From a virus, in the IMG/VR virus record IMGVR_UViG_3300032782_000029, positions 1 to 23,329 of that record: a stretch of 23,329 nucleotides of DNA, one strand, 5' to 3'. Within the stretch, counting starts at the first letter, position 1. Each line of letters starts with the position of its first letter. A model generated the notes under the pieces. That model did not search any database and had not been told where the DNA came from. It was given only the letters and a program-made list of their open reading frames with translations. Positions 11,789 through 20,200 of this stretch are shown here, piece after piece. The position numbers and the translations under genes were made by a program.

Positions 11789-11803
11789 CTGCAAAATCTA
11801 CAT
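11789..11803 (-). promoter_or_regulatory. Candidate operator A (15-bp near-palindrome) upstream of the helicase
   Basis: On the minus strand the sequence reads ATGTAGATTTTGCAG, a degraded copy of the perfect palindrome found before the holin gene. It lies 37 nt upstream of the helicase start, in the only promoter-bearing gap for the leftward early operon. No clear sigma70 boxes were identified beside it. Confidence 0.4.
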
Positions 11804-11844
11804 GTGCTAAGATTGAGTCATCGGCGCTTCGCTCCATCAGTAGC

Positions 11845-11990
11845 GGTATCCGATACCCCTCACGGTCCCTCGCTCGGTTCCCGTGAGGGGTGCTAAGAGG
11901 GGATGCTCTACCTTCCCCAAGGTGTCCACGCAGACGCCCTGAGTGTCCCCCCTTAGCACTCTCAGTCGCCCCTACCCTTTGCGACTATTC
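11845..11990 (+). ncRNA. Candidate structured phage RNA ahead of an intrinsic terminator
   Basis: The plus strand holds a series of stable hairpins: palindrome GGTATC-C-GATACC (11845-11857); a perfect 10-bp stem CCCCTCACGG/CCGTGAGGGG (11856-11865 and 11881-11890); a long stem of 14 positions with one mismatch pairing 11890-11903 with 11946-11959 and enclosing ACCTT-CCCC-AAGGT; and AGTCGC/GCGACT (11964-11986). A strong terminator follows at once. No ORF of note lies here and the preceding gene points the other way, so the terminator needs a rightward transcript starting in this gap. No convincing promoter was seen. Confidence 0.4.
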
Positions 11991-12018
11991 CGGCCCTCTT
12001 TGCTGAGGGCCGTTTTTT
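11991..12018 (+). terminator. Strong intrinsic terminator, rightward
   Basis: A perfect 8-bp stem CGGCCCTC/GAGGGCCG with a six-base loop is followed directly by six T residues. It lies between a leftward and a rightward gene, so it must end a short non-coding rightward transcript or act as an attenuator of the downstream gene. Confidence 0.85.
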
Positions 12019-12048
12019 GTCTAAGTCTGTGTTACAGTCCGGATCAGG

Positions 12049-12143
12049 CTCTCCCGGAAGGTAGCCAAGCCCTTTTAGGGCTGCATCTCTCCCGCGCCGT
12101 AAGGCGCACTTCCGGGGGAGGGGTGTAGCGCCTAAAGGGGCTT
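12049..12143 (+). promoter_or_regulatory. Riboswitch-like three-way-junction leader with possible ribosome-site sequestration
   Basis: P1 pairs 12049-12060 (CTCTCCCGGAAG) with 12109-12120 over 12 bp with one G-U. Inside are P2, AGCCC-TTTTA-GGGCT (12068-12082), and P3, GCGCC-GTAA-GGCGC (12094-12107) with a GNRA tetraloop. Downstream a weak stem AGCgCC-TAAA-GGgGCT is followed by a T tract that runs up to the ATG at 12148. Bases 12067-12079 can instead pair with 12131-12143 for 13 contiguous bp (one G-U), hiding AAAGGGG, the likely ribosome binding site. This is an aptamer-plus-switch layout; no known riboswitch class was recognised. Confidence 0.5.
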
Positions 12144-12147
12144 TTTT

Positions 12148-12393
12148 ATGTCTGATAATTTTGAGGCTTACTTGTCAGCTTTTGCAGAAACCGGATTAAA
12201 GTGCGAATGGAAGCCGTCAGGTGACGGTATGCCTACATTGACGATATCGCATCCCGAATCACGCTATGTTGCTAGATTCGCAACGCGTAATCAGAAATGG
12301 CGCATTAAACGCAATAATGTTGGTAATCCGACAAAGTACAGCGGGCAGGGACTTTCAAAATTAATTGATTGGTTCCAGTCTCAGACTGCGTGA
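12148..12393 (+). CDS. 81-residue basic protein controlled by the structured leader
   Basis: The protein starts six bases after the AAAGGGG site that can be sequestered by the leader. Residues 19-57 look beta-rich with many basic residues (CEWKPSGDG, LTISHPESRYVARFATRNQKWRIKRNN), followed by a helix LSKLIDWFQSQTA. No family is recognised. Its basic character would suit nucleic-acid binding. It stands alone between the divergent early operon and the lysis cassette, and its stop codon lies in the stem of a perfect 10-bp hairpin. Confidence 0.6.
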   Translation: MSDNFEAYLSAFAETGLKCEWKPSGDGMPTLTISHPESRYVARFATRNQKWRIKRNNVGNPTKYSGQGLSKLIDWFQSQTA

Positions 12394-12414
12394 CGTTTTA
12401 ACGGCACGCAGTCT
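12376..12414. repeat. Nested inverted repeats across the stop codon
   Basis: CAGTCT-C-AGACTG (12376-12388) is a perfect palindrome, and AGACTGCGTG (12383-12392) also pairs perfectly with CACGCAGTCT (12405-12414) over 10 bp. The second stem overlaps the TGA of the 81-residue gene. There is no T run after it, so it may stabilise the 3' end or alternate with the upstream palindrome instead of terminating. Confidence 0.5.
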
Positions 12415-12743
12415 TCGGCTCAAAACCTTCTGAGCGTGCTGGATTTGCCACAAAGAAGCCTGACGGTGGCGATGGCGGGAAGCGAAAGCGCAAGTGCCAT
12501 AGGGGATCGGGTCGCACTCCCGATTAAGTCTAGCGCAGTCCTAGCGAGTGTCGATCGACTAGGATGCCGTGACGATGCTTGGCTCCGTCCGGCTGGCTTT
12601 CTCTCCCATCTCATGGGTAGGGGGAAGCTTTGCCGATCCTCCACTTTCACCATCCGGCTGGTAGATAGCCCCGCCGCCAAAGGCGGGGCTTATATACATC
12701 AATACAGTACAATATATGCAGATTCTGCATTTGGGGCTAGACC
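12415..12743 (+). other. Gene-free, hairpin-rich region before the lysis cassette
   Basis: No convincing gene is present on either strand. Visible structures are ATCGGG/CCCGAT (12506-12524), TCCTAG/CTAGGA (12539-12564), GCTTTC/GGGAAGC arms enclosing CCCAT-CTC-ATGGG (12605-12617), a direct repeat of TCCGGCTGG (12588-12596 and 12653-12661) and a perfect 9-bp GC-rich stem AGCCCCGCC/GGCGGGGCT (12667-12690). The last stem is followed by TATATACATC, not a T run. A possible -10 box TACAAT (12708-12713) lies before the holin gene, without a good -35. Confidence 0.5.
12716..12730 (+). promoter_or_regulatory. Candidate operator B: perfect 15-bp palindrome before the holin gene
   Basis: ATGCAGA-T-TCTGCAT is a perfect inverted repeat around one central base. 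It ends 13 nt before the holin ATG and begins three bases after the possible -10 box TACAAT, where a repressor would block transcription. Related sites precede the helicase and the second HTH gene. Confidence 0.5.
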
Positions 12744-13217
12744 ATGTTACTCACAATTTTGTCAGGCTTATTCGGTGGTTTCTTGCGTCTCGCGCCTGAA
12801 ATCTTGAAATATCTGGATGCCAAGCAAGACAGAGCGCATGAAGCTCTAATGCAGGACAAAGCCCTTGCTTTCCAGCAATTGACGGGTACGCAGAAGATCG
12901 CCGAGATTACGGCGCAAGGGCAAATCGATACCCAAAAAGCGCAATTCGATGCGTATTCCTCTGCGTTCGCTTCGCAGTCCGCTATGTCGGTTGCTGGCGG
13001 CAAGGTGATGAGCGCGATTTCCGCGTTCGTGCGTCCGTCCGTAACGTTCTTCGTGTTCTGCATGTGGGCCGCGTGGAAAATCTGCACCTTCTACATGGCG
13101 CTCAAGGGTTCTGGTATTCAAGGTTTGATGGCTTCGTGGACGGATGACGACACGTCCATGATGACGATGATTATCAGCTTTTGGTTTTGTGGTCGCGCTA
13201 TCGAAAAAAACTCATGA
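12744..13217 (+). CDS. Holin-like membrane protein (GTA_holin_3TM-like)
   Basis: The 157-residue protein has a hydrophobic N-terminus (MLLTILSGLFGGFL), a long charged helical region with many Gln and Ala (about 25-80), then two membrane segments: ISAFVRPSVTFFVFCMWAAWKI (about 91-112) and MMTMIISFWFCGRAIEK (about 138-154). The RPSxTFF and ISFWFxGRA(I/L)EK pattern is shared by phage proteins related to the three-span holin family, usually encoded beside the endolysin. Here the GH24 lysozyme follows two genes later, supporting a holin or lysis-membrane role. GGGGC lies ten bases before the ATG. Confidence 0.65.
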   Translation: MLLTILSGLFGGFLRLAPEILKYLDAKQDRAHEALMQDKALAFQQLTGTQKIAEITAQGQIDTQKAQFDAYSSAFASQSAMSVAGGKVMSAISAFVRPSVTFFVFCMWAAWKICTFYMALKGSGIQGLMASWTDDDTSMMTMIISFWFCGRAIEKNS

Positions 13218-19943: not shown

Positions 19944-19958
19944 ATGCAGAATTTGCAG
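19944..19958 (+). promoter_or_regulatory. Candidate operator C (15-bp near-palindrome) before HTH gene 2
   Basis: ATGCAGAATTTGCAG matches the perfect palindrome of site B at 12 of 15 positions. It lies between the two HTH genes, ending eight bases before the second ATG and overlapping its AGG ribosome binding site, so binding could also affect translation or give autoregulation. Confidence 0.4.
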
Positions 19959-19966
19959 GTCGCCAT

Positions 19967-20200
19967 ATGAATAAAGAGTTATTGCCTACCGGTATGACGT
20001 TCGAAGACTTGGCCCGTAGCCTTGGGGTCAGCCTGTCTGCCGTATATCACTGGAAAGAGCCTCCGGAGTACGTCCATGCCTACCTCAGACAATATCTGGC
20101 CTCTCACCCGGAAACATGTGAACCTGTACGGTCAGGTGGTGTGGATGGCAACGAGCCGGAAGGAGTACGGCAAGGCGTTGAAGTTTCTGGGGGCGAATAA
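19967..20200 (+). CDS. Small HTH DNA-binding protein 2
   Basis: The 77-residue protein carries an HTH at residues 10-30 (MTFEDLARSLGVSLSAVYHW), followed by EPPEYVHAYLRQYLA. It resembles the preceding gene in the HTH and in the V-x2-YLR helix. The last 40 residues are Gly/Glu/Val-rich and lie in a 125-nt overlap with the next gene in another frame, so they may be little constrained. Site C sits in front of it, consistent with autoregulation. Confidence 0.65.
   Translation: MNKELLPTGMTFEDLARSLGVSLSAVYHWKEPPEYVHAYLRQYLASHPETCEPVRSGGVDGNEPEGVRQGVEVSGGE

Follow-up and report, generated by a model that had tools for sequence, protein, structure and literature searches.

A probable two-state leader RNA, kept by structure, in a small clade of tailed phages

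The window analysed here is positions 1-23,329 of a tailed-phage contig in IMG/VR (IMGVR_UViG_3300032782_000029). Replication genes run leftwards from 11751 (helicase, NinB-like, AAA ATPase and YqaJ exonuclease) and a lysis cassette runs rightwards from 12744 (holin-like phrog_6637, an ORF at 13181 and an endolysin), where the labels "holin-like" and "NinB-like" are our own reading. Between the two sets of genes lies a leader of the following composition.

12031..12063, + strand: possible hairpin P0 (tentative), promoter-proximal bases with the P1 5' arm and the bases following it
12033..12038, + strand: -10-like TACAGT with extended TG (TGTTACAGT), the predicted leader promoter, from a reading of the sequence
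12049..12060, + strand: 5' arm of P1, the closing stem of the junction, 12 bp with 12109-12120; compared as own versus swapped arm
12067..12093, + strand: 5' arm of helix T, a 27-bp terminator-like helix; comprises P2 and the P2-P3 linker
12068..12082, + strand: hairpin P2, AGCCCU-UUU-AGGGCU, inside the 5' arm of helix T
12094..12107, + strand: hairpin P3, GCGCC-GUAA-GGCGC, common to both folds; stem 12094-12098/12103-12107
12109..12120, + strand: 3' arm of P1, from the predicted fold
12116..12143, + strand: 3' arm of helix T, holding the ribosome site AAAGGGG at 12134-12140
12142..12147, + strand: U6 tract of the terminator-like structure, read from the sequence; abuts the ATG at 12148
12148..12393, + strand: ORF of 81 amino acids directly behind the leader

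The protein encoded by the 81-aa ORF, which had not been recognised by the sequence-only reading either, matches no family, and no relatives of it were found in IMG/VR or in phage records; by codon use the sense frame is the best of six, if weakly. On its upstream side the leader directly follows the terminator that closes a conserved non-coding stretch, of which 11837-12021 is identical in the closest relative of the window (L006).

Several observations were made on these surroundings. The non-coding stretch at 11825-12019 ends in an intrinsic terminator, is identical to L006 over 185 nt with flanks of about 88-90% identity, and folds with a z of -6.7; it has no Rfam match and is probably a separate phage small RNA, placed like the lambda 6S RNA before the lysis side. 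Also, a palindrome, TGCAGATTCTGCA, occurs at 11790-11802, 12717-12729 and 19945-19957 with 0-2 mismatches on one strand and heads three transcription units (the helicase, the holin-like gene and the group of ORFs at 19967); it is likely a phage operator or promoter element. The non-coding 12394-12740 behind the 81-aa ORF contains a tRNA T-arm-like CGGGTCGCACTCCCG, and similar GGTGCAA(C)TCCC motifs lie at the equivalent place in L030 and L031; this may be a second RNA or a decayed tRNA. ARAGORN detected no tRNA gene in the window. Genes for tRNA-Asp (L004, 566-641) and tRNA-Met (L005, 3088-3158) are found between the helicase and lysis genes of two other contigs, and a large ORF, glycoside-hydrolase-like by eye, occupies 1000-2740 of L005 between the helicase and holin-like genes.

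From sequence and folding prediction, the leader RNA at 12049-12147 has two alternative folds, namely a three-way junction or a 27-bp hairpin. The 12-bp closing stem and the two enclosed hairpins, one with a GNRA loop, that had been proposed from the sequence are all present as P1, P2 and P3: the P2 stem pairs 12068-12073 with 12077-12082 around a UUU loop and has two additional pairs (12064-12065/12083-12084), and the GUAA loop of P3 is of the GNRA type. In the long hairpin, 12067-12093 pairs with 12116-12129 and 12131-12143, leaving G12130 bulged; the 13-bp alternative pairing proposed before (12067-12079 with 12131-12143) thus exists but is merely the outer half of a 27-bp helix. Helix T buries AAAGGGG in the predicted fold, as had been anticipated. 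The terminator-like stem suspected just before the ATG is weak when taken alone (-6.4), and the strong terminator-like structure is the 27-bp hairpin. The junction and the long hairpin are mutually exclusive on topological grounds. For the predicted transcript 12045-12147 the minimum-energy fold is the long hairpin at -64.3 kcal/mol (z -6.3; none of 200 dinucleotide shuffles folds equally well), with the junction at about -49 kcal/mol.

No Rfam family reached its gathering score anywhere in the window, consistent with the earlier failure to recognise a known class; the best sub-threshold match at the leader, to a microRNA hairpin model, scored 30.9 bits where 150 are required. Also, no description of the element was found in the open-access literature that was searched.

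The same pair of folds was found in L006, L030, L031 and L004, at the same position upstream of the divergent helicase gene, three of the elements being located via that gene:

L030, 272-389, minus strand: element found via the helicase gene
L031, 2941-3062, minus strand: element found via the helicase gene
L004, 718-851, minus strand: element found via the helicase gene

The clade as found in IMG/VR comprises six contigs that hold the region, the window included, and five of them have the element; it is absent from L005, the most distant member (helicase 52% identical). Searches via the AAA ATPase, holin and NinB-like proteins gave no additional members, bacterial genomes yielded no helicase relative and had holin relatives without the element, a pattern search for P2 plus the terminator foot matched the L006 contig alone, and the DNA of the region gave nothing but short chance matches with annotated phages.

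Apart from the pair of the window and L006, the elements are only 38-50% identical to one another. Even within that pair, where the leader is kept, P1 is nearly all changed with its pairing intact (CUCUCCCGGAAG/CUUCCGGGGGAG in the window vs CUCGUGGCGGGGAU/AUCUCCGCCACGAG in L006). Among the 26 comparable pairs of helix T in these two phages, 21 are unchanged, three are changed on a single side, two on both, and none is broken; P3 of L006 (GCAUC-UUCG-GAUGC) shows two double compensatory changes and a loop turned from GUAA into UUCG. Across the five elements the P3 loops are GUAA, UUCG, GAAA, UAAA and GUAA, the junction strands are unrelated, and a tract of U5-U8 is present in every one. The check for covariation in homologues that had been proposed with the sequence-only reading accordingly turned out in its favour for P1, P3 and the alternative helix.

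Since P1 and T shift register between members, one nested alignment cannot hold both, and the pairing was therefore evaluated with arm-swap tests instead of a covariance model: the 5' arm of one element was paired with the 3' arm of another, for the five elements. In P1, own arms pair with a mean of -22.1 kcal/mol (worst -16.6) and swapped arms with a mean of -7.6 kcal/mol (best -13.8); in helix T the means are -40.0 and -20.8 kcal/mol, respectively. Among 120 permutations, the own-arm assignment comes first both for P1 and for T, while P2 ties because the window and L006 share it, and P3 is a short stem for this test. When P1 was compared with genomic segments and with shuffled 5' segments, the Fisher combined p-values were 9e-10 and 4e-10, which assume five independent elements, an assumption only roughly true because the window and L006 are close relatives in the remaining genome. 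The weakest P1 is that of L031, which 786 of 20,000 shuffles equal. A structural descriptor, which asked for a long hairpin next to a U tract, with P2 within the hairpin's 5' arm and a P1 that crosses the hairpin, was furthermore scanned over both strands of about 1.7 Mb of loci, some of which overlap. The five elements stood out clearly, with spans of 75-89 and energies of -62 or below; weaker matches numbered nine in real sequence, the five excluded, vs eight in dinucleotide-shuffled sequence in a controlled scan. L115 and a few other matches were rejected for long spans, weak energies or apparent coding sequence. Given that five phages keep both folds despite an almost complete change of letters, we take the leader for a genuine two-state RNA whose structure is conserved within a small clade of phages, and probably for an RNA switch.

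The ATG lies 0-1 nt past the U tract in four of the five phages and opens unrelated ORFs: 81 aa in the window, a 62-aa DUF5710 protein in L006 (E 6e-18; unrelated to that of the window), 44 aa in L030 and 75 aa in L031. No common family and no toxin family match was found among these small ORFs. Behind the L004 element there is no ATG-started gene and the tRNA-Asp gene follows, so that translation control would not be universal. The ORF is swapped exactly at the ATG between the window (12148-12393) and L006 (5377-5565), two phages that are otherwise about 90% identical, as if the leader marked a point of cargo exchange.

Folding order was predicted for transcripts that start near P1. In all five phages the junction remains the most favourable fold until the transcript is within 5-9 nt of the U tract's end; from there on the long hairpin is ahead by 7-15 kcal/mol (across the five, -39 to -51.5 kcal/mol for the junction and -52 to -64 kcal/mol for the long hairpin). 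RNA polymerase hides roughly the last 10-14 nt of a transcript; once polymerase has reached the last U of the tract, the junction is still best in five of five when 12 nt are hidden and in three of five when 10 nt are. The computed direct barrier from junction to hairpin is 27-39 kcal/mol, an upper bound because pairing between the P2-P3 linker and the new 3' strand proceeds via a pseudoknot, which the program cannot represent. With a barrier this high, refolding would require a pseudoknotted displacement path or a helper; together with the hidden-nucleotide predictions, it suggests that the default is read-through, or else that refolding is assisted. Also, P2 is stronger in every phage than the mirror hairpin of the 3' arm, which is weaker because of extra bulged or mismatched bases. 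Such an imbalance is what one would expect of a junction state that has to avoid termination and keep the ribosome site exposed, and the folding model is consistent with the junction being the on state and the long hairpin the off state.

As to where transcription begins, each of the five phages carries a TANANT hexamer that ends 6-10 nt upstream of P1, in four of them with the extended TG. The RNA would accordingly begin at P1; in the window its predicted 5' end falls near 12045, upstream of the 12060 limit beyond which a start would have spoken against the sequence-only reading. A sigma-70 consensus scan gave no full match at 12033-12038, because the -35 boxes are weak. If transcription started further upstream, the hairpin P0 could possibly form; its pairing is own-specific (rank 1 of 120), with a combined p of about 1e-4 that is moderate and post hoc. 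With 17 upstream nt added and 12 nt hidden, the hairpin replaces the junction as the predicted best fold in four of the five phages, and with 10 nt hidden the hairpin is best in five of five, vs two of five without the extra nucleotides. P0 and this shift suggest that the leader could distinguish initiation at its own promoter from read-through: RNAs from the local promoter would fold into the expressing junction, and in those reading through from upstream P0 would trap the P1 arm and favour the terminator. We regard such a start-site-reading switch as a doubtful extension of the folding model. An operator dyad at P0 was considered and rejected, as spacers and sequences are too variable.

Taken together, we lean, with slightly better than even confidence, towards a bistable leader that works as a kinetic attenuator. 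Two exclusive folds, one of them terminator-like with a U tract, and the retention of both by compensatory change are what such an attenuator would present. In this model, transcription would start near 12045 at the predicted promoter, and the emerging RNA would form P2, P3 and then P1 to complete the three-way junction, which would occupy the 5' arm of the long helix and block the terminator-like hairpin; AAAGGGG would be left largely free and the downstream small gene presumably expressed. Upon opening of the junction, or simply with time, the 3' strand would pair with the P2-P3 linker and displace P2 and P1, and the resulting 27-bp hairpin with its U6 would probably terminate transcription and bury the ribosome site, leaving no translation.

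The same folding order could instead serve a translation timer like that of MS2, in which termination is not regulated, the newborn junction RNA is translatable, and the later hairpin shuts the ribosome site. Junction first and hairpin last in five of five predictions, the ribosome site within the hairpin and the ATG at its foot in four of five, and the precedent of a transient MS2 structure that permits translation before the stable fold (PMC6733600) all agree with a timer; we nonetheless hold it to be unlikely, since the clean U5-U8 in all five, L004 included, points to termination, and a mere spacer between the ribosome site and the ATG would not have to consist of U alone. Since L004 retains the U tract even though no ATG-started ORF lies behind its element, the leader could also act as a free small RNA of about 100-115 nt, transcribed from its own promoter up to its own terminator and only incidentally followed by an ORF. 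With a predicted 5' end at P1 and a 3' end at the U tract, the length is similar (98-117 nt) in the five phages. Chance, however, hardly explains why four of the five U tracts run straight into an ATG, each opening a different, unrelated ORF, one of which encodes a known domain; we find the free small RNA somewhat less credible still.

A plain strong terminator or an RNase III processing hairpin, with the junction as a by-product of a long inverted repeat, would agree with the long hairpin being by far the most stable structure (-64.3 kcal/mol), and such hairpins are common in phages. P1, however, joins a segment outside the hairpin to its loop; it is not needed for the hairpin and is yet kept in five of five with different letters, so that we give this explanation little credence. 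The riboswitch-style layout noted at the outset holds insofar as a two-state leader is able to hide its ribosome site, and an aptamer-like junction next to an expression platform would be the arrangement of a ligand riboswitch of a new class. A ligand-sensing aptamer does not follow from it, however: nothing is conserved outside the stems, with no conserved unpaired nucleotides among the five members, and the downstream ORFs share no family. The lack of a conserved sequence core argues against a classical ligand riboswitch, which we consider highly improbable.

Selection appears to keep the folding pathway and not the sequence, as two incompatible folds outlive a near-complete turnover of letters. 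Such clean conservation of a pair of folds is rare and is missed by sequence searches; Rfam has no family for the element, and the small phage ORFs that it precedes are unrelated to one another. Confirmation would make the leader a compact, naturally occurring expression switch with two states, and a model on which to test how RNA folds during transcription.

Among known systems, the maturation-gene leader of MS2 has a transient fold that leaves the ribosome site open before the stable fold closes it (PMC6733600). Both are phage leaders, and for ours folding prediction places an open site before a closed one; MS2, however, is an RNA phage whose leader lacks a terminator U tract, whereas the leader described here belongs to a DNA phage and likely involves termination. 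The hok and aapA mRNAs likewise pass through metastable structures before a late stable fold hides the ribosome site (PMC6733600), and coupled covariation of the hok folding pathway is reported according to a reference cited there. In MS2 and in hok-type mRNAs, as would be the case here, expression depends on the order in which the RNA folds. Their metastable hairpins, however, prevent early translation or steer folding, and antisense RNA is involved, whereas the ORFs behind the present element match no toxin family, and its early fold is predicted to expose the ribosome site. With attenuators and terminator-type riboswitches it shares an antiterminator fold set against a terminator hairpin ahead of a gene, but no conserved aptamer core and no room for a leader peptide were seen, and the ribosome site lies inside the terminator stem itself. 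The put element of phage HK022, which comprises two stem-loops of about 70 nt, is similar in sequence between its copies and binds RNA polymerase (PMC9378689), is likewise encoded by a phage, folds as a nascent transcript close to a promoter and influences termination. Compared by description, the leader differs from put in its three-way junction, in the lack of sequence conservation and in carrying a conditional terminator of its own.
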